A program made the position numbers and the translations under genes. Below are positions 12,745 through 32,065 of a DNA stretch of 39,653 bases, one piece after another. Source of the stretch: a virus. The notes beneath the pieces were generated by a model that was given only the letters and a program-made list of their open reading frames with translations, was not told the DNA's origin and did no database searches. The stretch covers positions 1 to 39,653 of IMG/VR virus record IMGVR_UViG_3300023179_000238, one strand, 5' to 3'. Each line of letters starts with the position of its first letter. Position 1 is the first letter of the stretch.

Positions 12745-12908
12745 TTTATAATCCCTAATTCTTTTCTGTATTTATTTATCAATTTTCTTTCTTCACTAAA
12801 CTTGTCATTATTAGAAGCCATATGTCCTTTTATAACTTCTCTAGTTATTTTTAATTCAGTTTTTAAAATATAACTTAACTTTTCAGAATCTGTCAAATCA
12901 TTTTCCAT
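12741..12908 (-). CDS. Small basic helical protein, 55 residues
   Basis: MENDLTDSEKLSYILKTELK onward, ending KYRKELGIIK. It overlaps the 3' end of the glutamine synthetase gene by 11 bases and the next start by an ATGA, which supports translation in this operon. Confidence 0.6.
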   Translation of the reverse strand: MENDLTDSEKLSYILKTELKITREVIKGHMASNNDKFSEERKLINKYRKELGIIK

Positions 12909-14112
12909 TCAAATTAAATTTAATTTCTTCAGATGGTATATTAGATCCGACCATAGTTTCTTTATCAATTTCATAGTCATCATCATTTTTATATTCATTT
13001 AATAATTCATCATTTGATAATGTTTTAAAATCTGTTGTTAAATTATTAATATCAAGTTTATAGTTAATTTTATGTTTAATATCTTCTATTGCTGTTGCAT
13101 TTTCAATTGACTTATCTATTTGATATATAATTTTATATGGATCTGCGTTTGAGCCCGGTCTTCTATCTTCAACATAACCTTTCCAATTTTCTGCAGTTTG
13201 TTGTGGTACTCTGATTGACGCACCTCTATCAGAAATACCCCAACTAAATTTATCAATTGATTGTGTTTCGTAATTTCCTGTTAACCTTAATTCATTTGAC
13301 GATCCGTATTCTTTGATGTGTTCCCAATGTCTTGCATTAAAACTCGCAAACAATGATTCAAAATATTCTTTCCCTCCATCTTCTCTCATTTTGTGGTTTG
13401 AAAAATTTGTATGTAATCCTGAACCATTCCATTGTCCGTGTGTTAATGGTTTTGGGTGTAATTCAATGTGATAACCAAACTCTTCGGAAATTTTATATAA
13501 AAAGTATCTACTTATCCACAAATCATCCCCACCTTTAAGTTTCCCTTTTGAAAATACTTGATACTCCCACTGACCTAACGCAACTTCAGCATTTGTTCCT
13601 GTAATATCAATACCATAATCTAAACACATATCAAGATGTTTTTCAACTAAGTCTCTTCCTATTACATTATGCCCAACACCACAATAATATTCACCTTGCC
13701 CTTTTAAGATATTTCTTTTATGTCCAAGTATATTTCCATTTATTTCTTCTCTGATAAAATATTCTTGTTCGAAACCTAACCACAAATCTTCTTGTTCTTC
13801 ACCAATTTTTGATCTCATATTAGATTCATGTGGAGTACCATCAGGATTCATTACTTCACACAAAACATATATTGTTTTATTTTCAGAAGGAAAATTATAA
13901 TGTTTGTACATAGCAACCGGATTTAATATTCTATCTGAATTTCCAGTGTCTGCTTGATTTGTTGAGGACCCATCAAAATTCCATTTTGGTAATTTATTAA
14001 CATCACCAATATATCTTGTAATATCTGTGTATTCTACAATTTTAACTTTGCTTCTCAAGTTTGGTTCGGGTTTATAACCATCTAACCATACGTACTCTAA
14101 TTTAACTTTCAT
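12898..14112 (-). CDS. glnA: Type II glutamine synthetase
   Basis: 404 residues. Type II (eukaryote-like) signatures appear in order: KWNFDGSSTNQAD near 43-55, FEQEYFI near 114-120 (metal-binding Glu), GEYYCGVG near 140, GTNAEVALGQWEYQV near 172-186, LHPKPLTHGQWNGSG with its ATP-binding loop, and FSWGISDRGASIRVP. These residues carry ATP, metal and glutamate sites, so the enzyme should make glutamine from glutamate, ammonia and ATP. GSII is usually 340-370 residues; the last ~45 here are an acidic tail (NDELLNEYKNDDDYEIDKET) unlike the family. Rare in phages; it may raise glutamine for nucleotide synthesis. The gene lies in the same operon as thyA. Confidence 0.9.
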   Translation of the reverse strand: MKVKLEYVWLDGYKPEPNLRSKVKIVEYTDITRYIGDVNKLPKWNFDGSSTNQADTGNSDRILNPVAMYKHYNFPSENKTIYVLCEVMNPDGTPHESNMRSKIGEEQEDLWLGFEQEYFIREEINGNILGHKRNILKGQGEYYCGVGHNVIGRDLVEKHLDMCLDYGIDITGTNAEVALGQWEYQVFSKGKLKGGDDLWISRYFLYKISEEFGYHIELHPKPLTHGQWNGSGLHTNFSNHKMREDGGKEYFESLFASFNARHWEHIKEYGSSNELRLTGNYETQSIDKFSWGISDRGASIRVPQQTAENWKGYVEDRRPGSNADPYKIIYQIDKSIENATAIEDIKHKINYKLDINNLTTDFKTLSNDELLNEYKNDDDYEIDKETMVGSNIPSEEIKFNLNGK

Positions 14113-17426: not shown

Positions 17427-18080
17427 TTACTTGAATTTTTTTATTTTTTTTAGTGAACTCATTTTTTTTGCGTAATCCATCCATATCTCTTTGACTATTG
17501 GCCACTCGTTTTCTGGATCTGTGAACTTTCTAAAATTTTCTGAAAACCATTCTTCCATAGCTTGATCTAATGTTATTTTTTTTACTTTTGATCTTTTTAT
17601 TAAACCTCTAACATAAGCAGGAACTTCAGTATTTGATGTCAAGTAAACAAAGTTTTCATCTGATTCTAGTTCTTCTTCCTCATCATCATATGTTTCCATG
17701 TCTTCAAAATTTTGTTGCTCAATGTGTTCTAATTCATGTTCAATAGTTTCCCTTACTTCAGCAACTAATTGATTCGTACTTTTTGGAAAATATTCAGGAT
17801 TATATGTTATTTCAATTTCAAGTTCTTGCATATCAGCTTCAGCGTGAATTGAAAAATTATCTTCCATTTCATAATCTTCAATAAATGTACATTTGAAATC
17901 AAATGATGCGTATTCGTCTCCTCTTTCAAAGTATATACCCTCAAATTCAAAATTTTCTTTTTTTTTGAATTTGTTTATTACCAATCTCGATAATTTTAAA
18001 GATAAATCGTCTGACTTTCTTTCGTTGACTAATCTTTTTTTTACTCTTGTTATTAAATTTTCAATTAATTGTTTTCTCAT
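17427..18080 (-). CDS. HExxH metallopeptidase-like protein with leader-like N-terminus
   Basis: 217 residues. ETIEHELEHIEQQ contains HELEH (His115, Glu116, His119), the zinc-binding and catalytic motif of gluzincin and related peptidases; a third ligand is not obvious. The N-terminus MRKQLIENLITRVKKRLVNE resembles the leader family (amphipathic, ending in N-E at residue 20), so it may be packaged. The rest is very acidic (YDDEEEELESDENF). It overlaps the GAF protein gene by four bases. The activity is uncertain because HExxH occurs by chance. Confidence 0.55.
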   Translation of the reverse strand: MRKQLIENLITRVKKRLVNERKSDDLSLKLSRLVINKFKKKENFEFEGIYFERGDEYASFDFKCTFIEDYEMEDNFSIHAEADMQELEIEITYNPEYFPKSTNQLVAEVRETIEHELEHIEQQNFEDMETYDDEEEELESDENFVYLTSNTEVPAYVRGLIKRSKVKKITLDQAMEEWFSENFRKFTDPENEWPIVKEIWMDYAKKMSSLKKIKKFK

Positions 18081-18688
18081 TTTTCTAAGTGTGTCATTAA
18101 TACACCTCCGATTGAAGTGGCATGTACCATTAAGTGATTGATTGACTCCATTTCTAATTTAGTTTTTCTTTTTGTGTAATCAAGTCCTAAAGTTCCGATA
18201 AATTTGTCATCAATAGTTTTAATAGAAAATAAATAACCTGACTTACAACCTGATTCTTCAGCAATATATTTTAAACCATAAGTTGCAATTTTTTCATCTT
18301 TATAATCATGAATTTCAATTACATCATTTTGTAATAATTGATTAATTGACTTTGAAAATAGATTAACGGGAATATTGCTAAAATTACCTTGAACGGATGA
18401 AACTCCAGTATTAACTGTTTCATACATTATTGAAAACTTTGCCATTGATTTACCTGTTGGATAAAAATTTCCTCCATTGTGGAACTGAGTAACCCAAACT
18501 CTATCAGCGTTAAATTCCTCTCTTATGTGTTCAATTTTTTGATTTATTAACTCACTGACGTGTAATGTTTCTTTAACCATATCAGGTTTTTTCTTTCTCC
18601 CCTCCAATAGGTTTTTAACATAAATTACAGTTGTTGGTCCTATAACACCTGTAATAAAAGCAATTATTATTCCTACGTATTGTTCCAT
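18077..18688 (-). CDS. Membrane-anchored GAF-like sensor protein
   Basis: 203 residues: one N-terminal membrane helix (VGIIIAFITGVIGPTTVIYV), a basic linker, then a domain with the outline of a GAF fold. INQKIEHIREEFNADRVWVT begins it, FHNGGNFYPTG is a loop, and GCKSGYLFSIKTIDDKFIGT closes it. GAF domains bind small ligands. There is no output domain, so it may modulate a partner such as the histidine kinase encoded downstream in the map, which also has a GAF domain. Ligand unknown. Confidence 0.65.
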   Translation of the reverse strand: MEQYVGIIIAFITGVIGPTTVIYVKNLLEGRKKKPDMVKETLHVSELINQKIEHIREEFNADRVWVTQFHNGGNFYPTGKSMAKFSIMYETVNTGVSSVQGNFSNIPVNLFSKSINQLLQNDVIEIHDYKDEKIATYGLKYIAEESGCKSGYLFSIKTIDDKFIGTLGLDYTKRKTKLEMESINHLMVHATSIGGVLMTHLEK

Positions 18689-18953: not shown

Positions 18954-18976
18954 AACCCCACCTTTTGAGTGGGGTT
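18954..18976 (-). terminator. Rho-independent terminator after holin-like gene
   Basis: Minus strand AACCCCAC-TCAAAAG-GTGGGGTT followed by TTTTATTTAT, 24 bases beyond the holin-like stop. Confidence 0.88.
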
Positions 18977-18999: not shown

Positions 19000-19170
19000 T
19001 TATTTGTTTTTATCAATAACTGACCAAATAGTACCTGTAAGTGTCATAACACCACCGATGATTTCAGTAACTGTAGCCTCATCAACAAGACCTTTCATTA
19101 CAACAATACCACCGACAAACGTCAAAGTGTGTCTAACAATACCTAATACTTGTTCTTTAGTTAATTTCAT
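19000..19170 (-). CDS. Two-helix holin-like membrane protein
   Basis: 56 residues starting MKLTKEQVLGIVRHTLTFVG. Two hydrophobic stretches (residues 13-27 and 37-50) with a short acidic turn (LVDEATVTEI) and a charged C-terminus give the profile of a small class II holin. It lies directly after the endolysin gene and before a strong terminator. I infer that it makes the membrane lesion for lysis. No specific holin family is recognised, so another small membrane role is possible. Confidence 0.55.
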   Translation of the reverse strand: MKLTKEQVLGIVRHTLTFVGGIVVMKGLVDEATVTEIIGGVMTLTGTIWSVIDKNK

Positions 19171-19197: not shown

Positions 19198-19206
19198 TAT
19201 AAATAT
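19198..19206 (-). promoter_or_regulatory. ATATTTATA box before holin-like gene
   Basis: Coding strand ATATTTATA 27 bases before the holin-like ATG, so holin may have its own promoter apart from endolysin. Confidence 0.45.
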
Positions 19207-20042
19207 CACTTCAATAAGTTATAATACTCTTTGAAGTGTTTTATTCTGTCTGAAAGTCCTATTGTCCCTCCATTTACTCTTTTTGTTACTGCGGTAACTG
19301 TTGCGTCATCAGCTCCTTTATCACATATAGACCATAACTTATTTGAGTCAAAGAAAAATGCAGCAGACGCTAAAGGATATTTTGTAGCAACTAAGTCAGG
19401 ATTAGAAACACAATCTTCACCTATGAACTGTGTAAATTTAGTGTAATTTGCTTTTCCTGTTAATTGAATATATCCTCTACCTCTAAATTTAAACCCTTCT
19501 TTTGATGCTTCATCTCCATTACCCATTCTTCCACCATACACTCTTGATGCAATTTTTTCAGGTTGTTTTGCATAAGATTCTGCTAAGTCACCAGGGAAAT
19601 ATTTACCAAAAACTTTTTTTAACCCATCTTTAGAATAATTTAAGTTTTCAGAAACGGCTTTAAATCCGCCTGACTCGTGACCACATTGTGCTAAGAAATG
19701 TGCAAGTCTAAGATTAGTTGTAATGTTGAATTTTTTTGCAGTATCCGGTATCTGAGCAATAACCACATCAGGAATATGTCCTTTTAATTTTTGTATGTTT
19801 AATCCACCTGTTGGTTGAATAACAACAACAACATCTTCTTCTTTGATAACTGTTGTTCCGAACATTAGTTCCCAACTTTTATTTGCTGATGTGATTGTGC
19901 CATCCGCAGTTAAACCATTTTTGGATAACCAAGCATTTACCGCTGCTTCGGTTTTAGGTCCAAATGAACTATCAGCAGTTAATCCTAATTTTTCTTGTAG
20001 TAATTTAACGTCATTACCTTTAGATCCTACTTTTAATAACAT
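19206..20042 (-). CDS. Endolysin: PG-binding domain plus GH19 lysozyme/chitinase-like domain
   Basis: 278 residues. Residues 1-60 (LKVGSKGNDVKLLQEKLG, FGPKTEAAVNAW) form a PG_binding_1 repeat that docks on peptidoglycan. After a linker, residues ~90-275 match the GH19 family: HFLAQCGHESGGF with catalytic Glu123, SENLNYS, YGGRMGNGDEASKEGFKFRG, the signature FRGRGYIQLTGKANY, and AAFFFDSNKLWSICD. Phage GH19 proteins cleave the glycan strand of peptidoglycan. No signal peptide is seen, so it should need a holin. Confidence 0.92.
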   Translation of the reverse strand: MLLKVGSKGNDVKLLQEKLGLTADSSFGPKTEAAVNAWLSKNGLTADGTITSANKSWELMFGTTVIKEEDVVVVIQPTGGLNIQKLKGHIPDVVIAQIPDTAKKFNITTNLRLAHFLAQCGHESGGFKAVSENLNYSKDGLKKVFGKYFPGDLAESYAKQPEKIASRVYGGRMGNGDEASKEGFKFRGRGYIQLTGKANYTKFTQFIGEDCVSNPDLVATKYPLASAAFFFDSNKLWSICDKGADDATVTAVTKRVNGGTIGLSDRIKHFKEYYNLLK

Positions 20043-20053: not shown

Positions 20054-20731
20054 TTATTGTTTATTTTCTGTTGCGTATTTTATACCCATAATAGTCCCTA
20101 CAATTGAAAACGCATTTGTTAGAAGTATTCCAAATATATTTGACCAAGCGGCACTTATAACTTGAGTATCTTTTCCAACAAATAAAGTTAAAACATAAAC
20201 ACCTGTTGTTATAAACCCAACACCCATTATAACCCACAAAGCAACTCTTACAATTGTTGATATTAATTCGTTTTGTGTTTTCTTTTGTAGTATATCTAAA
20301 TCATTTTCTGCATTTTGTTTTGCGGCTTCAGCATCTATTCTTGCTTTTTCAACGTTAATCATTTCTGTTTGGAGCCTTTCGGTAAGTTGGATATTTTCTT
20401 TTTTCCATTCTTCAAGTTCTCTGTTTTGAACTTCAAAAGTTAATTTTGAATCTTCAATTTCTGTAATTTTGTTTTGAAGATCGTCCATCATTTTTTTATT
20501 TTCTTCATTTAGATTTGATAGTCTTATATTTTGTTCTTGAACTTGTTTGTTTACAACCATCCTTTTTTTTATGGATTCTTTGTTTTTTGTTCCGCAATAC
20601 TCTAAATATTCGTCAAATTCTTTGTCATTATTTACCTTAAATAATTTTAATATATTCCCCTCTAAACAAAGATCTTTTTGTTTTTGTATATCAATTAATT
20701 GTCTTCTTGTTTCTTTATCGGGTGTGATCAT
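20054..20731 (-). CDS. Coiled-coil protein with two C-terminal membrane helices
   Basis: 225 residues: a long coiled coil from about 60 to 155 (rich in Glu, Lys and Gln), then membrane helices near 162-186 (STIVRVALWVIMGVGFITTG) and 194-217 (AAWSNIFGILLTNAFSIVGT). It overlaps the receiver gene by four bases and lies 11 bases from the endolysin gene. The order kinase, receiver, this protein, endolysin, holin suggests it links signalling to lysis, for example as a spanin-like or pore-control protein. That is inference; no family is recognised. Confidence 0.7.
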   Translation of the reverse strand: MITPDKETRRQLIDIQKQKDLCLEGNILKLFKVNNDKEFDEYLEYCGTKNKESIKKRMVVNKQVQEQNIRLSNLNEENKKMMDDLQNKITEIEDSKLTFEVQNRELEEWKKENIQLTERLQTEMINVEKARIDAEAAKQNAENDLDILQKKTQNELISTIVRVALWVIMGVGFITTGVYVLTLFVGKDTQVISAAWSNIFGILLTNAFSIVGTIMGIKYATENKQ

Positions 20732-21165
20732 TTGTAAATCTTAAATGGTGCCGTTCTTTCTTTATAACCATCGTAATCTTTTTTAAATTCTTCTAATCTT
20801 GGTTCAATCTCGTCAGATTTAATAATCCAAAATTGAGCACCAGCCTGTAAAGCCTTTGCTTGTTCTTCAGATTCGTTAGAAGAAGAAATAATACCAATAA
20901 CTACATGGTTACCATATTCAAAATTAATTTTTCTAATCAATTCTATTCCGTCGAATGAACTTCCTATTATGTTTAAATCAACAAAAACACACTCAGGTCT
21001 ATACTCAGGTGTTTTGTCGTCAAACCATTTTTTAAACATCGCAGCCGCTTCATCCGCACTACTTACAGATTTTAATGATAGACTTATATCTAAAAGAGAA
21101 CATGCATCCTCAAATACCAAATGGAATAAATCCTCATCATCAACCAATAAAATAGAATCAATCAT
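20728..21165 (-). CDS. CheY-like response-regulator receiver protein
   Basis: 145 residues forming a stand-alone receiver domain: acidic pocket DDED (Asp9, Asp10), phosphoacceptor Asp63 in VFVDLN, Ser in GIISSS near 94, and Lys116 in WIIKSD. No DNA-binding output domain follows, so it acts like CheY or Spo0F through protein contacts. The ATG lies three bases after the stop of the histidine kinase, making a cognate pair likely. Confidence 0.9.
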   Translation of the reverse strand: MIDSILLVDDEDLFHLVFEDACSLLDISLSLKSVSSADEAAAMFKKWFDDKTPEYRPECVFVDLNIIGSSFDGIELIRKINFEYGNHVVIGIISSSNESEEQAKALQAGAQFWIIKSDEIEPRLEEFKKDYDGYKERTAPFKIYK

Positions 21166-21168
21166 CTT

Positions 21169-22929
21169 TTAATTTTTAAATTTTATTTTCATTTTAGTTC
21201 CAATTTCATTTTTTTCACAGGAAATTGAAAACCCGTGTTCTTGTAATATTGCAATACAAATATTTAATCCTAATCCTGTACCACTTTCTTTTTGCCCTTC
21301 TTTTCTTGTATAAGGCATTGATAACCTATTAAAATCCTCTTGTGTAAGTCCTCTACCGTTATCTTGTATGATTAAATTTTCATCTTCAATAAATATCTTA
21401 ACAAATTTAGTTTGACTATCATTATATTTTAACCCATTTCTAATTAGGTTATCAATTGCGGTCGAGAAAAGTGATTCATTAACTTCACAAGACCCTAACT
21501 CATCAATTATTACCTGGCCTTTATATGAAGTTAATGAAAGATAATTATCTAAAATTTCTTTTAAGTTATGTGTTTCTTTTTCTAATACGGCATCTTTTTT
21601 TACTAAGTTGGTAAACTCATAGACACCTTTATAAACCTTTTGGGTATGTTTTAACCCTTCTTTTAACATTTTAAGTGGTGATTCTAATTTTAAAGTTTCA
21701 ATAACATTCTCATCAAGTCTTCTCTCAAGTGACTTAATTCCTCTTGGAATATATGTATTTATTCCTGAATGCATGTCGTGTCTGATTATTTTAGCGGCAT
21801 GTTCCAAATATGTATTTTTCTTTTCTATTTCTTCAGTTTTTTTCATCAATTCAGTTACATCATATCTTATTGACATAAATCCTTTTAATTCATCATTATC
21901 GTCAAATTCTGCAATTATATACGAATCAACCCAATACAGTTCTCCTTTTTTTGATTTATTTATAACAACATCATTCCAAATCTTTTTTTCTTTAACTGTT
22001 TTTTTATACATCTTTGCCCAATAATCCTTTGGGTGTTTTCCTGAATTAACAATATTATGATCCTTACCAATGGCTTCTTTTAGTTTCCAACCTGATACTT
22101 CTTCAAATTTTTTATTTACGTATGTTATTTTTCCGTTTTTATCAGCCTTAGACACCAATACAGAATAATCCACAAAGTTTTCAATATCATTTACTGTCTT
22201 GTTTGCGATATTTGTTTCTTTAACTGAATAAGCAAACGAATATAAAGAAGATAACATTTGAGCAAAATCAACCTCAACTTTATTCCATTTTCTTTTTATC
22301 AAACTTTCAATACATATTACACCAATGGTTTCACCTTTATGTATGATTGGAACATCTAACATTGATTTAATACCTAATGGTTTTAAATAACCTTCAGTAA
22401 AACAAGAAGTCGCTTCGTGTGTTTCTGCGTCATCAGCAACAATTATAGGGTTTAAAAGTAATGCAAAAAAATAGGGTTGAAAATCTTTTTTAAATAACTC
22501 AATATCTTGATACCAAGTATCTTCTGATTTTATATATAGTTGTTGACAAACAATTGATGTTCTATCTTTATTGTATAACCATATAGAACACCTATCGGAG
22601 TTTATTGAATCAACAACTTCTTTAGTTAGTGCTTTAGCACCTTCGCTAACATTCCCTTCATAAAATAATGGGTTTTGTGATTGAGATATTATAGTTTGGT
22701 TTAGTTCTTTAACATATTCGGAATGTTCTTTTCCTTTTTTATTTCTTTTTATATATTCAAAAATTATTACAATAAAAAAAGGAATGAAGGACAAAAAAAC
22801 TGCGTATGTAAAATAACTACCCCTATTTATGTATTCTATAAAATTAAAAACTAAATGTGATTGAGTTCCAAAAAAAAGTAACATTAACCCTATTGATGTT
22901 ATTAGTGCAATTTTTGATATTTTTGTCAT
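21169..22929 (-). CDS. Membrane sensor histidine kinase (GAF-PAS-HisKA-HATPase)
   Basis: 586 residues from MTKISKIALITSIG at 22929; the ATATTTAT box just upstream of this ATG decides it over a start six codons earlier. Two membrane helices lie near 7-23 and 40-60. A GAF domain spans ~86-235 (CSIWLYNKDRTSIVC, LDVPIIHKGETIGVICIE) and a PAS domain ~250-360 (VNKKFEEVSGWKLKEAIGKD). The phosphorylation site is IIRHDMHSG with His384. The ATPase has N-box IDNLIRNGLKYN (Asn494, Asn498), G1 QDNGRGL and G2 GTGLGLNI. All catalytic boxes look intact. Phage-encoded histidine kinases are very rare. It forms a pair with the next receiver gene. Confidence 0.92.
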   Translation of the reverse strand: MTKISKIALITSIGLMLLFFGTQSHLVFNFIEYINRGSYFTYAVFLSFIPFFIVIIFEYIKRNKKGKEHSEYVKELNQTIISQSQNPLFYEGNVSEGAKALTKEVVDSINSDRCSIWLYNKDRTSIVCQQLYIKSEDTWYQDIELFKKDFQPYFFALLLNPIIVADDAETHEATSCFTEGYLKPLGIKSMLDVPIIHKGETIGVICIESLIKRKWNKVEVDFAQMLSSLYSFAYSVKETNIANKTVNDIENFVDYSVLVSKADKNGKITYVNKKFEEVSGWKLKEAIGKDHNIVNSGKHPKDYWAKMYKKTVKEKKIWNDVVINKSKKGELYWVDSYIIAEFDDNDELKGFMSIRYDVTELMKKTEEIEKKNTYLEHAAKIIRHDMHSGINTYIPRGIKSLERRLDENVIETLKLESPLKMLKEGLKHTQKVYKGVYEFTNLVKKDAVLEKETHNLKEILDNYLSLTSYKGQVIIDELGSCEVNESLFSTAIDNLIRNGLKYNDSQTKFVKIFIEDENLIIQDNGRGLTQEDFNRLSMPYTRKEGQKESGTGLGLNICIAILQEHGFSISCEKNEIGTKMKIKFKN

Positions 22930-22932
22930 ATC

Positions 22933-22941
22933 AATAAATAT
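22933..22941 (-). promoter_or_regulatory. ATATTTATT box of histidine kinase
   Basis: Coding strand ATATTTATT three bases before the chosen ATG at 22929. Confidence 0.45.
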
Positions 22942-22971
22942 CACCATACTCTTTACTTTTCAAAATAATAT

Positions 22972-22995: not shown

Positions 22996-23601
22996 ATGTA
23001 TACAAGAGAACAAATTGAGAAGGCAGTTGTATCAAAGGGATACAAATGGTTTGCGGACGATGCAAACAAAAGTTACGATGTTAATATCGTAGGTGTAAGA
23101 AATAACGCACCATCAGTTGCAAAAAAAGTTACTAACGTTTTTGATGATCACCTTACATTATCTTTTAAAGATGAGAAAGGTGCTTGGCAATTTTACTGTT
23201 GGATGGCGACTTGTGATCCGGGTAAAAAAGGTGTAATGGAATTCCATAATAAAAATGGTGTTGCAAGATTAGTACCAGGACAATACAGAGGTGTTTGGAA
23301 AATTGATTTGCATCAAGGTAAATACGAAGCCCTTTGTCAAAGAAATGGTAATGTTACTGTTTGGAGAGACGCAAATAAAGACCTAATTTTTGAAGAAACA
23401 AAAACAGACACAGGAATGTTTGGTATTAACATCCACAAAGCAGGACAAGACTCACAGTGGGTTGAAAACTGGTCTGAAGGTTGTCAAGTTTTTAAAAGAG
23501 TAAAAGACTTTGACGTATTTATGTCTTTATGTAAAAAGGCTTCCAAAATTCACGGAAACAAGTTTTCTTATACTCTATTAGAGTCGACAGACATTAAATA
23601 A
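22996..23601 (+). CDS. L,D-transpeptidase (YkuD)-like protein
   Basis: 201 residues. The C-terminal part has MFGINIHKAG (His147) and ENWSEGCQVF (Ser160, Gly162, Cys163), the H...SxGC arrangement of YkuD-fold L,D-transpeptidases with catalytic Cys163. No signal peptide. In phages such proteins may modify or cleave peptidoglycan cross-links, fitting the lysis block, although it is transcribed divergently. An ATATTTATA box sits 15 bases upstream of the ATG and a clear terminator follows. Confidence 0.7.
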   Translation: MYTREQIEKAVVSKGYKWFADDANKSYDVNIVGVRNNAPSVAKKVTNVFDDHLTLSFKDEKGAWQFYCWMATCDPGKKGVMEFHNKNGVARLVPGQYRGVWKIDLHQGKYEALCQRNGNVTVWRDANKDLIFEETKTDTGMFGINIHKAGQDSQWVENWSEGCQVFKRVKDFDVFMSLCKKASKIHGNKFSYTLLESTDIK

Positions 23602-25983: not shown

Positions 25984-26028
25984 CTCGAACACTCAAAAAG
26001 TGACAGAAATTTGTAAAATTTTTTTTGA

Positions 26029-26099
26029 CGGTCCATCCCGGTTACGCTCCGAGGGCTTGTCCGTGACAGGGACAAATGTTACTATTACACCAATGGACC
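26029..26099 (-). tRNA. tRNA-Asp(GTC) with atypical T-loop
   Basis: Acceptor GGTCCAT/ATGGACC; anticodon arm TGTCC-CTGTCAC-GGACA gives GTC. The T-arm is CTCGG-AGCGTAA-CCGGG, so the conserved TTC of the loop is replaced by AGC. Confidence 0.8.
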
Positions 26100-26159
26100 A
26101 AAATTCACACTTTAAAACCGTAGAGGTACAACTTGTGTGTTGTGTTGTTCATCTTATTG

Positions 26160-26231
26160 TAGTCCATACGGGAATCGAACCCGTGACTTCGCCGTGAAAG
26201 GGCGACGACTTAACCGCTTGTCGAATGGACC
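26160..26231 (-). tRNA. tRNA-Glu(TTC)
   Basis: Anticodon arm TCGCC-CTTTCAC-GGCGA, T-arm ACGGG-TTCGATT-CCCGT, acceptor GGTCCAT/ATGGACT. Canonical cloverleaf; no encoded CCA. Confidence 0.92.
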
Positions 26232-26235
26232 GTTT

Positions 26236-26448
26236 TTACATTTTTTTTATCAATTTCATAATTTCATCAACAGTTTCTGTTACTGAAAATCCACCATTAT
26301 TGTGAGTGGTAACACCAAGTTTAGTATGTGCTTTCTCAGTAACTCTTCCGTATTCCACTTTTTCATCAACAGGGTAAAGGTGTCCTATGTGTGCCACGTT
26401 TACAACTATTTGGTTTCCTTTTGTGTTTGTCAATTTGATAAATCTCAT
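26236..26448 (-). CDS. Conserved small phage protein
   Basis: 70 residues: MRFIKLTNTKGNQIVVNVAH, then TKLGVTTHNNGGFSVTETVD and a final helix. I recognise this FlbD-like small beta protein from Bacteroidota phages and prophages; the function is unknown. It has its own host-type promoter and sits inside the tRNA array. Confidence 0.75.
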   Translation of the reverse strand: MRFIKLTNTKGNQIVVNVAHIGHLYPVDEKVEYGRVTEKAHTKLGVTTHNNGGFSVTETVDEIMKLIKKM

Positions 26449-26467
26449 ATTTTTCTTATTTGTCTTA

Positions 26468-26499
26468 CAAAGATAGGTATTTTATTTCAATCTACCAAA
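26468..26499 (-). promoter_or_regulatory. Bacteroidota-type promoter
   Basis: Minus-strand TTTG-N20-TATCTTTG, 20 bases before the start of the 70-residue protein at 26448. Confidence 0.8.
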
Positions 26500-26518
26500 T
26501 CTTTTTTAAATTTTTTTG

Positions 26519-26592
26519 TGGACACTGTGGGAATCGAACCCAAACGATCTGATTGCAAATCAGTCGACCTGCCGTCGGCATCAGGCCCAACT
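26519..26592 (-). tRNA. tRNA, probably Ala(TGC), with unpaired acceptor
   Basis: T-loop TTCGATT with TTGGG/CCCAC stem and an anticodon arm CTGA-TTTGCAA-TCAG giving TGC are clear, and CCTG/CAGG forms a D-stem. The 3' acceptor strand AGTGTCC has no partner upstream, where the sequence runs straight into the 3' end of tRNA-Gly. The 5' boundary is therefore approximate. Possibly a pseudogene. Confidence 0.5.
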
Positions 26593-26667
26593 TGGAGCAG
26601 GTACCCGGAATCGAACCGAGATCTTCTGATTGGAAGTCAGAAGTAATAACCGTTATACGATACCTGC
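26593..26667 (-). tRNA. tRNA-Gly(TCC), CCA encoded
   Basis: Acceptor GCAGGTA/TACCTGC, discriminator T, then CCA in the DNA. Anticodon arm TCTGA-CTTCCAA-TCAGA, T-arm CTCGG-TTCGATT-CCGGG. The only gene of the array that seems to encode CCA. Confidence 0.88.
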
Positions 26668-26673
26668 TTATTG

Positions 26674-26754
26674 TACTGACGGAGGGATTCGAACCCACGT
26701 TTTAAACTTACCGCTACAGGCATAGATGATATAAGCATCCACTGGTACGTCAGC
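26674..26754 (-). tRNA. Unusual tRNA-like gene, possible anticodon TAT (Ile)
   Basis: Acceptor GCTGACG/CGTCAGT and T-arm GTGGG-TTCGAAT-CCCTC are present. A 5-bp arm GGATG-CTTATAT-CATCT would give anticodon TAT, but only seven bases (TACCAGT) precede it where the D-arm should be, and 25 bases follow it, including GGTA that can pair with TACC. So either a D-arm-less tRNA or a non-decoding RNA. Confidence 0.5.
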
Positions 26755-26763
26755 ATTTTTTAG

Positions 26764-26836
26764 TAGCGGGAGCAGGACTCGAACCTGCGATCCTAGCTTA
26801 TGAGACTAGGCGGATAACCAACTTCCACATCCCGCG
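26764..26836 (-). tRNA. tRNA-Met(CAT), possibly initiator
   Basis: CGCGGGA/TCCCGCT with a 1:72 mismatch (C and T), as in initiator tRNA. Anticodon arm CTAGT-CTCATAA-GCTAG gives CAT; D-arm and T-arm GCAGG-TTCGAGT-CCTGC are canonical. The three G-C pairs expected in the initiator anticodon stem are absent. Confidence 0.85.
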
Positions 26837-26843
26837 ATATTTG

Positions 26844-26917
26844 TGGTTAGGGGTGGAATCGAACCACCGGCACAAGACGTTTCAAACCTTTGCTCTACCT
26901 ACTGAGCTACCTGAACC
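26844..26917 (-). tRNA. tRNA-Phe(GAA), first copy
   Basis: D-arm GCTC-AGTAGGTA-GAGC; anticodon arm AAGGT-TTGAAAC-GTCTT (two wobbles) gives GAA; T-arm GGTGG-TTCGATT-CCACC. The acceptor GGTTCAG/CCTAACC has two mismatches. Confidence 0.75.
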
Positions 26918-26935
26918 AAATTTTGTAGTTTAGTA

Positions 26936-26992
26936 GTTAAATCAAACTCTCGTTTCACTATCTTGATTTAACAGGTTGATACACTTTACGAG
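26936..26992 (-). ncRNA. Pseudoknotted RNA candidate
   Basis: A perfect 10-bp helix GTTAAATCAA/TTGATTTAAC at 26936-26945 and 26963-26972 has a 17-base loop. In it CTCGT (26949-26953) is complementary to ACGAG at 26988-26992 outside the helix, giving an H-type pseudoknot. No ORF; between tRNA-Phe and a strong hairpin. Confidence 0.4.
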
Positions 26993-27051
26993 TTTCCCGT
27001 TTCTTACAACCACAATATTTTAATATTTCAAAGAACTTTTTACTTCTATGT

Positions 27052-27086
27052 CGGGGGTAGACACCCTTACTACTTTTCTACCCCCG
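27052..27086. terminator. Strong hairpin, likely terminator
   Basis: Nine-base inverted repeat CGGGGGTAG/CTACCCCCG with a 17-base loop. It has no perfect T run on either side, so it may be a terminator or processing site just downstream of the promoter at 27099-27130. Confidence 0.4.
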
Positions 27087-27098
27087 TTGTTTGTCTTA

Positions 27099-27130
27099 CA
27101 AAGATATGTACTTTATTTTAATCTGCCAAA
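27099..27130 (-). promoter_or_regulatory. Bacteroidota-type promoter
   Basis: Minus-strand TTTG-N20-TATCTTTG reading towards tRNA-Phe, tRNA-Met and the following tRNA genes. Confidence 0.75.
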
Positions 27131-27150
27131 TCTTTTTCAAACTTTTTTTG

Positions 27151-27233
27151 TAGTCCGAGAGGGACTTGAACCCTCACACCCAATGGGTAACAGATTTTAA
27201 GTCTGTCTTGTATACCAATTCCAACATCGGACC
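27151..27233 (-). tRNA. tRNA-Leu(TAA)
   Basis: Class II cloverleaf: anticodon arm ACAGA-CTTAAAA-TCTGT, variable arm ACCCATTGGGT, T-arm GAGGG-TTCAAGT-CCCTC, acceptor GGTCCGA/TCGGACT. Confidence 0.92.
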
Positions 27234-27243
27234 ATTATTTACA

Positions 27244-27260
27244 CCAATATGTCAAAGAAC
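27244..27260 (-). promoter_or_regulatory. boxA-like antitermination element, copy 1
   Basis: Minus strand reads GTTCTTTGACATATTGG just upstream of tRNA-Leu. It resembles boxA of rRNA leaders (E. coli TGCTCTTTAACA) and is repeated exactly before tRNA-Ser at 32039-32055. Confidence 0.5.
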
Positions 27261-27264
27261 AAAA

Positions 27265-27289
27265 AACCCCTCTTGGTTAGAGAGGGGTT
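27265..27289 (-). terminator. Rho-independent terminator
   Basis: Minus strand AACCCCTCT-CTAACCA-AGAGGGGTT followed by a run of six T. It ends the short unit with the 22-codon ORF. Confidence 0.85.
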
Positions 27290-27313
27290 CCTTAATTTTA
27301 TATGTATAAAATA

Positions 27314-27382
27314 TTACACCCTCTCCTTGAAAGTTGCCTCAGCTAAATCGCCTCCTATCAATGATATGTGTAAATTTTTCAT
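27314..27382 (-). CDS. 22-codon ORF before a terminator
   Basis: MKNLHISLIGGDLAEATFKE and two more residues. An ATATTTATA box lies about 20 bases upstream and a strong terminator 25 bases downstream, so this is an independent small transcript or a leader peptide controlling read-through into the tRNA-Leu gene. Coding status is unproven. Confidence 0.4.
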   Translation of the reverse strand: MKNLHISLIGGDLAEATFKERV

Positions 27383-27440
27383 TTGCGTTTATTAATTTTG
27401 ATATAAATATATAACACTTTTCAAAAGTGTCAAGTTTTAT

Positions 27441-27773
27441 TTAAAAATCTTTTTTTCTCGAGTATTGAAACTTACCTTGTCTTTCACTATAAGTGTTATA
27501 CATATTTTTACCCATAGAATCAATACCAAAAATACGTTTTCTTATGTCTTCGGGTATGTCTTCAAAGTTTTCAACTTCAGTGTATGGATCAAAATCAAAA
27601 TCGTAATAACCTGTGTTTTCTAAATCAGGATCAAAATCTACAAAATTTCCGTTTTCATCAGTCCAATAATTATCTTTTTGGTCTTTGAATTTTACTCTGT
27701 ATCCACTTTCTTTAATCACTCTTTTAACAATACGAGTAAGATCAGATTCAGTTAGTCTTATAATCTTTTTCAT
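27441..27773 (-). CDS. Leader-bearing hypothetical protein (LTES family)
   Basis: 110 residues. It opens with MKKIIRLTESDLTRIVKR followed by VIKE, the model form of the leader; I-K-E at 20-22 is a candidate prohead-protease site. The remainder is acidic and Tyr/Asp-rich (DFDPYTEVENFEDIPEDI), without a known domain. An ATATTTAT box lies only six bases from the ATG, so the mRNA may be nearly leaderless. It is placed inside the tRNA array away from its relatives. Confidence 0.8.
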   Translation of the reverse strand: MKKIIRLTESDLTRIVKRVIKESGYRVKFKDQKDNYWTDENGNFVDFDPDLENTGYYDFDFDPYTEVENFEDIPEDIRKRIFGIDSMGKNMYNTYSERQGKFQYSRKKDF

Positions 27774-27776
27774 AAT

Positions 27777-27785
27777 AATAAATAT
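27777..27785 (-). promoter_or_regulatory. ATATTTATT box of leader gene
   Basis: Coding strand ATATTTATT ends three bases before the ATG, an extreme case of the recurring box. Confidence 0.45.
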
Positions 27786-27793
27786 ATTATCAT

Positions 27794-28465
27794 TTAGAAA
27801 TCTTTTTCAACGGTACTTAACCACTTTCTTATTGTGTTATCACTAACACCATATTTTCTACCTACACCGGAATAACCCATTTCTCTTACTTCACTAAGTA
27901 ATTGGTTAAATGGGGGTCTTTCAACCCTTCTATTTTTTATACTCCAACACTTTTCACACATCGTTGATTTTAAATTAATTTGTGAACCACACTGACAAGT
28001 CTTCATTTCTTTTATAATATTTGATTTATTTTTTTTCTTAGTGTTTGAGTAATTGTGTTCTTGCATATGACAATTAGAACAAAGGATTTTTAAATTTTCT
28101 AATTTATTATTAAATCTATTTTCATCTATGTGGTGGAGTTCTAAAGGTATTGGTTTACCCATCCATTCTTCTAAACCACAACACTCACATTTTTTTTCTT
28201 TGATATTATCTCTAATTAGTAGTTTTCGTAATTTAGATGCGGACACAACATCTTTTTTAATATAATCAAAAACACTAATCCTATTTGGTGATATTTTTTT
28301 ATTTTTTAATCCTTTATTACCTGAATATTCAATATTAAGTTTATTTAAATACGAGTTTAAAGTTTCTGGTTTACAATTCAAAAATTTACAAATGTTTGCC
28401 TTAGATTCGTTGTTCTCAACCATCAAAAGTATGTCTTCTTTCTTTTCAATTATATCATTTCTCAT
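27794..28465 (-). CDS. HNH homing-type endonuclease, second copy
   Basis: 223 residues. KKCECCGLEEWMGKPIPLEL, HHIDENRFNNKLENLKIL and CSNCHMQ form an HNH domain with zinc-binding Cys pairs; here the first His-His is intact (LELHHID), unlike the copy at 25284 (ILDHI). A second Cys cluster (CQCG, CEKC) and the C-terminal HTH YSGVGRKYGVSDNTIRKW match the paralogue. The N-terminal 60 residues contain an HTH. It may promote its own spread in the tRNA region. Confidence 0.88.
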   Translation of the reverse strand: MRNDIIEKKEDILLMVENNESKANICKFLNCKPETLNSYLNKLNIEYSGNKGLKNKKISPNRISVFDYIKKDVVSASKLRKLLIRDNIKEKKCECCGLEEWMGKPIPLELHHIDENRFNNKLENLKILCSNCHMQEHNYSNTKKKNKSNIIKEMKTCQCGSQINLKSTMCEKCWSIKNRRVERPPFNQLLSEVREMGYSGVGRKYGVSDNTIRKWLSTVEKDF

Positions 28466-28478
28466 AGTGTGTTTTATT

Positions 28479-28487
28479 AATAAATAT
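28479..28487 (-). promoter_or_regulatory. ATATTTATT box of second HNH gene
   Basis: Coding strand ATATTTATT 13 bases before the ATG. Confidence 0.5.
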
Positions 28488-28533
28488 CATACACACTATG
28501 AAAAGTATAATAGTTCGTATACTATTTTTTTTG

Positions 28534-28615
28534 TACCTTCGGAGAGACTCGAACTCTCACTCCTTTAACGGAATCCGGGCCTAAACCGGATGTGTCTGCA
28601 TTCCACCACGAAGGC
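28534..28615 (-). tRNA. tRNA-Leu(TAG)
   Basis: Anticodon arm TCCGG-TTTAGGC-CCGGA, class II variable arm, T-arm GAGAG-TTCGAGT-CTCTC, acceptor GCCTTCG/CGAAGGT. Confidence 0.92.
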
Positions 28616-28623
28616 ATTTTGTT

Positions 28624-28696
28624 GAGCTCAGGGAGGGATTTGAACCCCCGTACTCGGTTTTGCAGACCGGTGCCTAACCCCTCGGCCACCTGAGCT
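28624..28696 (-). tRNA. tRNA-Cys(GCA)
   Basis: Acceptor AGCTCAG/CTGAGCT, anticodon arm CGGT-CTGCAAA-ACCG giving GCA, T-arm with TTCAAAT. Canonical. Confidence 0.9.
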
Positions 28697-28700
28697 TATA

Positions 28701-29156
28701 TTAGCGGCAGTGGTGATCTGCCGCTCTTGTTGCAATTTGGTTATGGGGTTTTATGTTTGTCTTGTACCCCAATGACATCGCCCAACCAACAGCAGGTTGA
28801 ACTAATTTTGAACTGAAGTGTTTTTCATCGCTGTTATAATCTAAATCTATTTCCACCTTTACATTAACCTTTTGTGTCAACCACTCTGCAACTTCAATTG
28901 AATAATCGGCCTCACTCCATAATCTTGTCCATTTGTCTTTTACTTTTTTCACTTTTTGTTTGTGGTAAATATAGTGGACACCTCTATTACCATACCTGTA
29001 GGCAATTGCAGTAACATAAACAGTTGATCTTCTATGATTCTGAGAGTCAGTACCTATATGAACCTCAACCCAGGGACAATCTTTTAGAATGTCAATTGTA
29101 TGTTTTACAATGTCAGATACAGGTTCACCAGTTACTTTTCTGAATACTCTGTTCAT
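28701..29156 (-). CDS. RNase H-like YkuK/DUF458 family protein
   Basis: 151 residues. VEVHIGTDSQNHRRSTVYVT and VEIDLDYNSDEKHFSSKL, then LVQPAVGWAMSLGY, match the YkuK (DUF458, PF04308) pattern, an RNase H-fold with Asp residues at both strands (IGTDSQ and DLDYN). The biochemical role is not established. It fits between tRNA genes in the same orientation and could act on RNA; that is inference. Confidence 0.8.
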   Translation of the reverse strand: MNRVFRKVTGEPVSDIVKHTIDILKDCPWVEVHIGTDSQNHRRSTVYVTAIAYRYGNRGVHYIYHKQKVKKVKDKWTRLWSEADYSIEVAEWLTQKVNVKVEIDLDYNSDEKHFSSKLVQPAVGWAMSLGYKTNIKPHNQIATRAADHHCR

Positions 29157-29171
29157 AGTTTATAATTTTTG

Positions 29172-29247
29172 TGGAACCATACGGAGTCGAACCGTAACCT
29201 CTGGATTTTCAGTCCAGCGTGACACACCACACTTACACCATAGTTCC
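29172..29247 (-). tRNA. tRNA-Phe(GAA), second copy
   Basis: Anticodon arm CTGGA-CTGAAAA-TCCAG, T-arm TACGG-TTCGACT-CCGTA, acceptor GGAACTA/TGGTTCC. The 3' end of the peptidase-like gene abuts it. Confidence 0.88.
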
Positions 29248-29748
29248 TTATTTAATTTGAAATGCTGATCTCATAGGTCGTTTTGTTTTAATAGCATCTT
29301 CAGGGTTTCCAATAACAACACCATCTTTAATTGTAAACGCATGTCTTCTAACCAATACGAAGAATGTGCCTTTAGGATTTTTCTTTACAAACGTACCAAC
29401 AGTCATTTGTCTTTTAACTTTTTCACCTTTCACTTTTACTTCGTATGAAAGTGAATATGGATATGCCACACTATTACTTTTTGTACCAATAGGTATTATT
29501 TTTTTACTATTAACTTTTAGCTCACCTTCAGACAGTTTAGTCATTTTAGATGCGGTATAGTAAGTCCCTTTTCTTGGTTTTCTACCAAACTCTTCAGCGA
29601 CATACTTATGAGCATAATCATAAGTTACATCAAACGCCGAAGCAAATGCCCTGACAACACAATCATTTGTTTCTCTTCTTGCGGTTACAGAATCACTATA
29701 ACCTTTAATCGCACTTCCTGTAGATTCGTATGGTAATTGGTTTTTCAT
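29248..29748 (-). CDS. Papain/C39-like cysteine peptidase fold protein
   Basis: 166 residues from MKNQLPYESTG (five codons after an in-frame ATG). RRETNDCVVRAFASAFDVTY carries Cys30, followed near the C-terminus by LVRRHAFTIKDGVVIGN with His136 and Asn148: the Cys-His-Asn order of papain-like folds. I recall similar proteins in phages of Bacteroidota, usually annotated as hypothetical. Cleavage target unknown. A host-type promoter overlaps its start region. Confidence 0.6.
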   Translation of the reverse strand: MKNQLPYESTGSAIKGYSDSVTARRETNDCVVRAFASAFDVTYDYAHKYVAEEFGRKPRKGTYYTASKMTKLSEGELKVNSKKIIPIGTKSNSVAYPYSLSYEVKVKGEKVKRQMTVGTFVKKNPKGTFFVLVRRHAFTIKDGVVIGNPEDAIKTKRPMRSAFQIK

Positions 29749-29752
29749 ACTA

Positions 29753-29783
29753 CAAAGATACAAAAAGTTTTTTAATTGGCAAA
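29753..29783 (-). promoter_or_regulatory. Bacteroidota-type promoter
   Basis: Minus-strand TTTG-N19-TATCTTTG five bases from the ATG of the peptidase-like gene, implying a very short leader. Confidence 0.8.
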
Positions 29784-29796
29784 ATTAAAAAATTAG

Positions 29797-29868
29797 CGCG
29801 TCCTCAAGAATTCGAATCCTGACCGATGGGTTTGGAATCCATCATGCTAACCATTACACCAAAGACGC
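29797..29868 (-). tRNA. tRNA-Trp(CCA)
   Basis: Acceptor GCGTCTT/AGGACGC; anticodon loop TTCCAAA gives CCA, with an A-C mismatch at the base of the loop; T-arm CAGGA-TTCGAAT-TCTTG. Confidence 0.88.
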
Positions 29869-29877
29869 TCATTAAAG

Positions 29878-29949
29878 TACCCCTCGAGAGATTCGAACTC
29901 CCACCTTAAGCCTTAGAAGAGCTTTGTACTTCCATTATACGAAAGGGGC
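29878..29949 (-). tRNA. tRNA-Arg(TCT)
   Basis: Acceptor GCCCCTT/GAGGGGT; anticodon arm AAGCT-CTTCTAA-GGCTT; T-arm GGGAG-TTCGAAT-CTCTC. Confidence 0.9.
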
Positions 29950-29953
29950 AAAT

Positions 29954-30118
29954 AAAAGATGATGAACAACTTTATCAGGAATCCCGTCCTCAGACTTCAC
30001 ACACCATTAGAGAGTTGGGTTGTTACAACAATACAATTAAGATTGAATACCTATCCTTAGTGTGTACCCTTACGAACACCTCTCCGTGTCCGTTGTTCTA
30101 CGTTTCCTATCATCTTTT
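29954..30118 (-). ncRNA. 165-nt structured RNA between tRNA genes
   Basis: Ends pair in a 10-bp helix (AAAAGATGAT/ATCATCTTTT), followed inside by a second helix GAACAAC/GTTGTTC. Further in, ACACAC/GTGTGT and GGAGAG/CTCTC could pair in a crossing order, that is, a pseudoknot. No significant ORF, no T-loop. The closed architecture and the position inside a tRNA operon suggest a processed functional RNA. Not matched to any family I know. Confidence 0.45.
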
Positions 30119-30119
30119 G

Positions 30120-30192
30120 TACCTTCGGCGAGATTCAAACTCACATCTTGTGGTCCGTAGCCACAGGTTCTATTCTGTTGAACTACGAAGGT
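30120..30192 (-). tRNA. tRNA-Arg(ACG)
   Basis: Acceptor ACCTTCG/CGAAGGT; anticodon arm TGTGG-CTACGGA-CCACA; T-arm GTGAG-TTTGAAT-CTCGC. ACG normally needs A-to-I editing by TadA. Confidence 0.9.
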
Positions 30193-30198
30193 ATGTTG

Positions 30199-30271
30199 TG
30201 TGTATGATGGGTCACGATCCCATGGCCTCCACTTTCACAGAGTGGCACTCTACCAACTGAGCTACATACAC
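30199..30271 (-). tRNA. tRNA-His(GTG)
   Basis: Acceptor GTGTATG/CATACAC; anticodon arm CCACT-CTGTGAA-AGTGG. The T-loop is ATCGTGA, starting with A instead of T. Confidence 0.9.
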
Positions 30272-30278
30272 CATGTTG

Positions 30279-30348
30279 TCCCGTATGTTGGGTTCGAACC
30301 AACCTAAAATCGGATATGAGCCAATTTTGTTCACCTAGAACCTACGGG
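30279..30348 (-). tRNA. tRNA with CAT anticodon (Met or Ile2)
   Basis: Anticodon arm ATTGG-CTCATAT-CCGAT, T-arm GTTGG-TTCGAAC-CCAAC, acceptor CCCGTAG/ATACGGG. The D-loop is only five bases (TAGGT), giving a 70-nt gene. CAT could also be lysidine-modified to read AUA. Confidence 0.82.
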
Positions 30349-30353
30349 AGTTG

Positions 30354-30437
30354 CGGAAGACATTGGAATCGAACCAAATACCCGAAGGCACATCTCGCTT
30401 AGCAGGCGGACCCTATCGCCATCAAGGTTTATCTTCC
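30354..30437 (-). tRNA. tRNA-Ser(GCT)
   Basis: Class II; acceptor GGAAGAT/GTCTTCC, anticodon loop CTGCTAA with stem CGC/GCG, variable arm TGCCTTCGGGTA, T-arm TTTGG-TTCGATT-CCAAT. Confidence 0.86.
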
Positions 30438-30441
30438 GTAG

Positions 30442-30514
30442 TGTTCACGACGGGTTACGATCCCATTACCTTTTGCGTATCAGACAAACGCTCTACCAAT
30501 TGAGCTACGTGAAC
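30442..30514 (-). tRNA. tRNA-Ile(GAT)
   Basis: Acceptor GTTCACG/CGTGAAC; anticodon arm TTTGT-CTGATAC-GCAAA; T-loop ATCGTAA (A in place of T54). Confidence 0.9.
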
Positions 30515-30520
30515 TTGTTG

Positions 30521-30593
30521 CGGACAAGGAAGGGTACGATCCTACAACCTATCGGTTAACAGCCGATTGCTCTACCAATTGAGCTACTTGTCC
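30521..30593 (-). tRNA. tRNA-Asn(GTT)
   Basis: Acceptor GGACAAG/CTTGTCC; anticodon arm ATCGG-CTGTTAA-CCGAT; T-loop ATCGTAC. Confidence 0.9.
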
Positions 30594-30601
30594 ATTTGTT
30601 G

Positions 30602-30685
30602 TGGGAGAGGAGGGACTCGAACCCCCAGTCTCAAATGAGAGCGGTTTTACAGACCGCGCGGCTACCAATTACCGGTTACTCTCCC
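30602..30685 (-). tRNA. tRNA-Tyr(GTA)
   Basis: Class II; anticodon arm GCGGT-CTGTAAA-ACCGC, variable arm TCTCATTTGAGA, T-arm GGGGG-TTCGAGT-CCCTC, acceptor GGGAGAG/CTCTCCC. Confidence 0.92.
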
Positions 30686-30691
30686 TTATTG

Positions 30692-30765
30692 TACACCCTA
30701 TAGGAATCGAACCTATGACCTGTTGTATGTAAAACAACCGCTACTACCTGCTGAGCTAAGAGTGT
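30692..30765 (-). tRNA. tRNA-Val(TAC)
   Basis: Acceptor ACACTCT/AGGGTGT; anticodon arm GTTGT-TTTACAT-ACAAC; T-arm ATAGG-TTCGATT-CCTAT. Confidence 0.9.
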
Positions 30766-30766
30766 G

Positions 30767-30797
30767 TAAAGATAATACTTTTTTTTTAATTACCAAA
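30767..30797 (-). promoter_or_regulatory. Bacteroidota-type promoter of the main tRNA run
   Basis: Minus-strand TTTG-N19-TATCTTTA immediately ahead of tRNA-Val; the tRNA genes from Val to Arg follow without another promoter. Confidence 0.7.
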
Positions 30798-30805
30798 TTT
30801 TTTTG

Positions 30806-30880
30806 TGTCCCCGGTTGGATTCGAACCAACGGTCTTCCCGTTAAAAGCGGGAGGCTTGAACCAGACTCAGCTACGAGGAC
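30806..30880 (-). tRNA. tRNA-Lys(TTT)
   Basis: Acceptor GTCCTCG/CGGGGAC; anticodon arm TCCCG-CTTTTAA-CGGGA; T-arm GTTGG-TTCGAAT-CCAAC. Confidence 0.92.
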
Positions 30881-30920
30881 TTTTGTTTGTCATACTTGTC
30901 ACTTTCCATAACACTTGTTT

Positions 30921-31697: not shown

Positions 31698-31710
31698 AAT
31701 CTACTTTCTA

Positions 31711-31719
31711 TATAAATAT
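31711..31719 (-). promoter_or_regulatory. ATATTTATA box of nuclease gene
   Basis: Coding strand ATATTTATA, 13 bases before the ATG, the same spacing as at the HNH gene ending at 25961. Confidence 0.5.
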
Positions 31720-31763
31720 CTCAAAAGTCAAAAAAAGTTAGTCGAACCTATAAATTATTTATC

Positions 31764-31839
31764 GTTGCAAGTGCCGGATTCGAACCGTTCTTGAATGTCC
31801 CAAACATCCCGTGCTCACCTGTTTACACCACACTCGCAA
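31764..31839 (-). tRNA. tRNA-Pro(TGG)
   Basis: Acceptor TTGCGAG/CTTGCAA; anticodon arm GGATG-TTTGGGA-CATTC with G37; T-arm with TTCGAAT. Confidence 0.87.
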
Positions 31840-31845
31840 TATTTG

Positions 31846-31928
31846 TTGTGGAAGTAGGACTCGAACCTACACTGAGAAATTTCTCCCTGATTCAAAGTCA
31901 GGAGGCCTGCCAATTAGCCGATTCCACA
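31846..31928 (-). tRNA. tRNA-Gln(TTG) with class II variable arm
   Basis: Acceptor TGTGGAA/TTCCACA; anticodon arm CCTGA-CTTTGAA-TCAGG gives TTG. The variable region contains the hairpin GAGAAATTTCTC (about 15 nt), a feature normally limited to Leu, Ser and bacterial Tyr tRNAs. Confidence 0.85.
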
Positions 31929-31942
31929 TTATTTTTTTACAG

Positions 31943-32028: not shown

Positions 32029-32038
32029 TTTTATAAGG

Positions 32039-32055
32039 CCAATATGTCAAAGAAC
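32039..32055 (-). promoter_or_regulatory. boxA-like antitermination element, copy 2
   Basis: Identical minus-strand GTTCTTTGACATATTGG, between tRNA-Thr and tRNA-Ser, as before tRNA-Leu at 27244-27260. Confidence 0.5.
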
Positions 32056-32065
32056 TTTTCTTTTG

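Follow-up and report, generated by a model that had tools for sequence, protein, structure and literature searches.

The virus sequence analysed here carries genes for a sensor histidine kinase (HK), a stand-alone receiver (RR) and a coiled-coil membrane protein (CC), followed directly by endolysin and holin genes. The three genes almost certainly form a selected, functional signalling module. We propose that this module is a redox-responsive two-component system of the phage that acts through CC on the timing of lysis, a reading to which we assign a probability of about 0.5. The window, by which we mean the whole stretch of 39,653 nucleotides (IMG/VR virus record IMGVR_UViG_3300023179_000238), contains the following features at this locus.

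22996-23601, plus strand: U1, divergent putative lysin-like protein (PHROG endolysin family phrog_33083, 3.5e-10; synteny)
21169-22947, minus strand: HK, sensor histidine kinase, 592 aa (Pfam, alignment, PDB profile matches, AF2, Foldseek)
20728-21165, minus strand: RR, stand-alone receiver, 145 aa (Pfam Response_reg, alignment)
20054-20731, minus strand: CC, coiled-coil membrane protein, 225 aa (alignment, AF2)
19206-20042, minus strand: GH19 endolysin with peptidoglycan-binding domain (Pfam Glyco_hydro_19, 2.9e-10; PG_binding_1, 2.5e-05; PHROG endolysin, 4e-69)
19000-19170, minus strand: small holin of the Pam3 gp28 family, 56 aa (Pfam Phage_holin_10, 6.1e-18)
18954-18976, minus strand: intrinsic terminator-like hairpin past the holin gene (9-bp stem with 5 GC pairs, T-rich tail)

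The minus-strand order is HK, RR, CC, GH19 endolysin, holin and terminator. HK and RR are separated by 3 bp, RR and CC overlap by 4 bp, and gaps of 11 bp and 35 bp follow between CC and the endolysin gene and between the endolysin and holin genes. The sequence-only reading had described a run of genes on one strand from the kinase, receiver and coiled-coil genes into the endolysin and holin genes, with overlaps of a few bases; the run and the single strand were confirmed, and the RR-CC junction was the sole true overlap. Its coordinates were also correct, and the HK start that it gave, 22929, is an internal ATG (MTKIS...) in a frame that extends to 22947. Position 22929 is possibly the start of HK, and relatives such as L062 and L055 begin there. 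Because the hairpin at 18976-18954 is the first clear terminator of the run and lies past the holin gene, HK, RR, CC, endolysin and holin are possibly expressed as one transcript. A promoter scan gave scores no better than those of shuffled sequence. An E2-family protein, possibly with a GAF-like domain and with an N-terminal transmembrane (TM) helix in relatives, is encoded at 18077-18688 on the minus strand, and its gene stays 3' of the lysis genes both in the window and in close relatives. In another branch of relatives, synteny placed a U1 homologue directly 3' of CC. In addition, the GH19 endolysin showed about 72% DNA identity to the huge-phage records LR756500.1 and LR745206.1, in a collection where RR and CC had no match.

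HK consists of two N-terminal TM helices, a GAF domain (residues 104-237; Pfam 5.5e-16), a PAS domain (260-370; 8.6e-09), a DHp domain (365-447) and a CA ATPase domain (HATPase_c, 2.3e-13). Pfam HisKA did not match HK, and the AF2 model (pLDDT 90) showed the DHp hairpin at 365-410/422-447. The H box (His390), the N box around 499 (N500/N504), the G1 box at 529 (D529/G531/G533) and the G2 box at 556 (G558/G560) were intact, and these residues were invariant in an alignment of 43 HKs. HK therefore has the phospho-acceptor His and the N, G1 and G2 boxes that define a sensor histidine kinase, and its kinase parts are of the ordinary bacterial type. Among the relatives, the sensors varied on this constant kinase core: GAF with PAS, PAS alone, a periplasmic segment, or GAF with PAS of a second type. 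In 16 loci, where a single receiver lies beside two kinases, at least two kinase matches were found. The DHp domains of such tandem kinases were 69-78% identical within a locus, in contrast to 52-65% for the ATPase domains; this greater likeness of the receiver-docking domain is consistent with two kinases serving one receiver. An additional signal-peptide protein was often encoded between both kinases. One such family (f14, in L046, L053, L130, L205 and others; for example, L131:3545-4159) comprises periplasmic coiled-coil proteins of about 200 aa with a signal peptide, which may feed the periplasmic-sensor kinase or may be spanin-like.

The PAS domain suggests what the kinase senses. The best PDB matches of the HK profile were MmoS (3ewk, 7e-25), Aer (8dik, 2e-14) and NifL (9qq6 and 2gj3), and NCBIfam gave a NifL match over the HK PAS domain, which was 41% identical to MmoS PAS-A over 102 columns and 36% identical to Aer. 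The flavin contacts of Aer and MmoS are His53, Asn85 and Arg115 (Aer numbering), of which the His and Arg contacts are reported to be rare in PAS domains that bind flavin (PMC9668731). The equivalents in HK are H297, N330 and R361, and this triad was retained in 72 of the 74 distinct HKs whose PAS domain is of the Aer/MmoS/NifL type; the PAS triad of some kinases is incomplete ("HRA"), or a periplasmic sensor takes the place of PAS. The HK PAS domain thus combines the sequence clade and the flavin-contact residues of the Aer/MmoS-type FAD redox PAS domains. Because both features are kept, redox or energy state is our best-supported guess for the input, and HK is predicted to bind flavin. HK resembles the FAD-PAS sensors Aer (E. 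coli aerotaxis), MmoS (Methylococcus) and NifL (Azotobacter) in its PAS domain and H-N-R triad. Unlike them, it is phage-borne, its PAS domain is fused to a GAF domain and a kinase core, and its partners, encoded close to lysis genes, are a single-domain receiver and a membrane protein.

RR matched Pfam Response_reg (PF00072) over the cut-off (7e-10) and is a single-domain protein without a DNA-binding or enzymatic output domain. Residues D9, D10, D63, S94/S95 and K116, which correspond to the acidic pair, phospho-Asp, Thr/Ser and Lys of receivers, were invariant among 39 representatives sharing 77-97% identity. RR was the most conserved member of the module, with pN/pS values of 0.03-0.18 and nearly saturated synonymous sites, and the module is under purifying selection. 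The sole match in a PDB profile search with RR was a designed TIM barrel, which was rejected as spurious. The module shares catalytic boxes, the phospho-acceptor Asp, the Lys and the lack of an output domain with CheY/Spo0F-like single-domain-receiver systems. It differs from them in having a dedicated, essentially virus-only partner, the two-TM coiled-coil protein CC, and in that two kinases can adjoin one receiver.

CC has an N-terminal head with a LEGNI motif, a coiled-coil stalk and two C-terminal TM helices (TM1, about 157-182; TM2, 195-219). TM2 is polar and near-invariant (TNAFSIVGTIMG), with a mean top-residue frequency of 0.92 and 16 of 25 positions invariant. The LEGNI motif and TM2 were retained in more distant members, where CC identity falls to about 40-50%, and the stalk varied in length between members. 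In the AF2 model (pLDDT 85), a small head is followed by a helix of about 149 residues that runs into TM1, and TM2 leads back to the cytoplasm; the model thus predicts a two-TM hairpin with both ends cytoplasmic. When the CC model was compared with viral models by Foldseek, the single genuine match was to an uncharacterised protein of Caudovirales with 48% identity. Assignment to a known fold was rejected, as the model is a long helix with a TM hairpin, and so was assignment to a PHROG family (phrog_1544 and others), for which the matches were weak coiled-coil matches found with few CC members. CC matched none of the holin families in Pfam, PHROG and NCBIfam; permeabilisation by CC is hypothetical, and CC is therefore not filed as a holin. 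Altogether, the membrane kinase with GAF and PAS domains and all catalytic boxes, the stand-alone receiver with intact Asp63 and Lys116, and the coiled-coil membrane protein beside them, all named in the sequence-only reading, were verified.

RR and CC are inseparable. Among 103 loci with a distinct CC, RR abutted CC in all 97 that could be tested, and a kinase was upstream in 84 of 87; in three loci, RR and CC occurred without a nearby HK. Because RR has no output domain and stays with CC even in these three loci, CC is the likely target of the receiver.

The timing of lysis in tailed phages is usually put down to intrinsic holin clocks, with a few signal inputs. In T4 lysis inhibition (RI/T), as in holin-antiholin timing, the phage sets lysis time by a condition; RI senses superinfection in the periplasm, and T4 is not known to have a phosphorelay. 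Here, we propose that the membrane-anchored kinase would read the redox or respiratory state of the host through its putative flavin-binding PAS domain (Aer/MmoS/NifL type) and its GAF domain. HK is predicted from its conserved residues to autophosphorylate on His390 and to pass the phosphate to Asp63 of RR. The receiver would then bind CC, the partner that always accompanies it, probably at the cytoplasmic head or coiled coil, and binding would shift the state of the two-helix membrane hairpin with its almost invariant TM2. This change may advance or delay membrane permeabilisation by the adjacent holin and endolysin, so that the energy state of the host would decide whether the phage lyses the cell or waits.

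In addition to the locus in the window, the lysis-gene neighbourhood was investigated in relatives. In 59 loci, the sequence reached at least 4.5 kb on either side of the module; a wall enzyme lay within 4.5 kb in 42 of them, and no recognised wall enzyme was found within this distance in 17. These enzymes belong to three unrelated types (GH19, U1 and GH24, the T4-type lysozyme) in differing arrangements, and Phage_holin_4_1 and other small membrane proteins were likewise found near the module or CC. Each long contig has a single GH19 gene, which was no more than 3 kb from the module in 10 of 13 distinct contigs, compared with 0.5 expected; the module positions in three of the contigs were taken from the IMG/VR scans for HK, RR and CC. 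Random placement would give this proximity with P of about 3e-12, a value made optimistic by the shared ancestry of the loci. The endolysin gene is on the opposite strand in many relatives, and therefore co-transcription with the module is not conserved. The variable order and strand of the lysins suggest repeated re-association, with the reservation that related phages are not independent. The position next to lysis genes noted earlier for the window thus held for most relatives, whereas in others the module lies amid replication or other genes; the enrichment near lysis genes is strong but not universal.

Other genes were also found near the module. A patatin-like phospholipase gene, possibly a membrane-damaging output, lies between HK and RR in one branch (L002, L004, L018, L019 and L020; for example, L019:9773-10765, Pfam 3.6e-21), and a gene for a YceI-like lipid-binding protein lies directly upstream of the kinase in one branch (L095:5204-5728, family f38, Pfam 7.3e-42). 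Small proteins of family f86 (L205:10151-10600 and L119:11478-11927), with LDDxRxP...SLDHDLG motifs, are cREC-like by eye. A gene for a CHU_C-type secreted protein is directly upstream of the kinase in relatives. At 5069-7306 on the minus strand of the window and at L153:1082-3304 are genes for large secreted proteins whose C-terminus carries a CHU_C signal for type IX secretion (Pfam 3.7e-16 and 4.4e-14); such cargo in a phage points to a Bacteroidota host.

A real phage two-component system could also have an output other than lysis, with CC serving superinfection exclusion, control of the host membrane or transport, or a pseudolysogeny-like switch between persisting and proceeding; the module would then lie near lysis genes since late membrane-active genes cluster. 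The loci that lack a nearby wall enzyme, the patatin, YceI and type IX-secreted proteins among the neighbours, and the absence of a holin-family match for CC fit this explanation. However, the recurrent pairing with three unrelated wall-enzyme types in varied arrangements argues against it, and we regard it as rather unlikely. Less probable still is that CC is itself the main holin, gated directly by RR phosphorylation, with the 56-aa gene as an accessory or antiholin. CC has a two-TM hairpin with a near-invariant polar TM2, is always retained, and is followed directly by a lysin in many loci. In contrast, the window has its own Phage_holin_10 gene, other holin-like genes lie near CC in relatives, the long cytoplasmic coiled coil is atypical of holins, and CC is found far from lysins too. 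The preferred reading has evidence against it too: with a separate holin in the window, CC need not be the lysis trigger, and the loci without a recognised wall enzyme, the endolysin genes on the opposite strand, the three loci without a nearby HK and the kinases without the complete PAS triad also count against it.

The distribution of the module bears on its origin. IMG/VR scans gave 43 loci with HK relatives, at least 589 stretches with RR and at least 484 with CC. Long contigs bearing the module measured 126-304 kb; a terminase match was found in 7 of 14, and the terminase was T4-like in the one long contig compared against known phages. No HATPase_c genes beyond the module kinases were found in these contigs. 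Against 50,697 INPHARED phage records, RR and CC gave no match, and the only HK matches were to Aer-like PAS domains in records from enterobacteria, several of them P1-like, and to one freshwater record, MW462191. The latter (MW462191.1, L208), labelled a freshwater bacteriophage, has two kinase genes alongside ccm, glnE and htrA and resembles a bacterial contig. A scan of 84,980 bacterial and archaeal species, keyed on two conserved peptides and therefore open to escape by divergent relatives, found the CC family in a single contig of 16.8 kb; when 198 other genomes from the phylum of that contig were searched with the RR profile, no strong match appeared. The window also has an array of 23 tRNA genes (26027-32138) and a gene for a divergent glutamine-synthetase-like protein with a partial catalytic domain (12898-14112, minus strand; Gln-synt_C, 2e-15).

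The system could be recent host cargo that rewires host expression through host response regulators and has no dedicated phage role, as the ordinary bacterial type of the kinase parts might suggest. However, the CC family is essentially phage-only, which makes recent capture unlikely; the near absence of CC from the prokaryote species searched, the lack of a strong RR match in the 198 genomes of one phylum, the receiver without a DNA-binding output and the gene order kept across distant loci leave this explanation very improbable. Contaminating or misclassified bacterial DNA was rejected with near certainty, for although HK, thymidylate synthase and glutamine-synthetase-like genes occur in bacteria too, the window carries tRNA, endolysin and holin genes, and the module recurs in the long phage contigs, half with a terminase match and none with another HATPase gene. 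A complete phage-encoded two-component system, as first proposed, is therefore strongly supported by a three-gene unit conserved under purifying selection in hundreds of viral contigs, and the module is not a one-off capture. The rarity ascribed to phage histidine kinases applies to isolates; in this uncultivated lineage, they are not rare.

Phage histidine kinases are already on record and are also present among the PHROG families. The Clostridioides difficile phage phiCDHM1 encodes AgrBDC, with the histidine kinase AgrC, but no response regulator, and is believed to influence quorum sensing of its host (PMC3901668); in the present module, the phage supplies the kinase, the receiver and the membrane partner. 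The cREC domains of jumbo phages have a receiver-like fold and are described as never found with histidine kinases (PMC7824862); in contrast, RR is a conventional receiver adjoining a kinase. Searches of the open-access literature found no account of a kinase and receiver encoded together by a phage, nor of such a pair with a membrane partner of its own.

Tentatively, at somewhat below even odds, these viruses represent an undescribed, widespread lineage of large phages infecting Bacteroidota, in which a phage-owned phosphorelay would control lysis through a dedicated membrane effector. Fed by a flavin redox sensor, and in some members by two kinases of which one has its sensor in the periplasm, it would serve as an energy-state-dependent lysis clock. 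The module is common in uncultivated viruses, and the prediction is precise: a flavin-dependent kinase, a single receiver and a membrane effector. This reading would give a role to protein families whose sole annotation to date is "unknown". If it is true, viruses would have a direct read-out of the energy state of the host and a new route to timing its killing.
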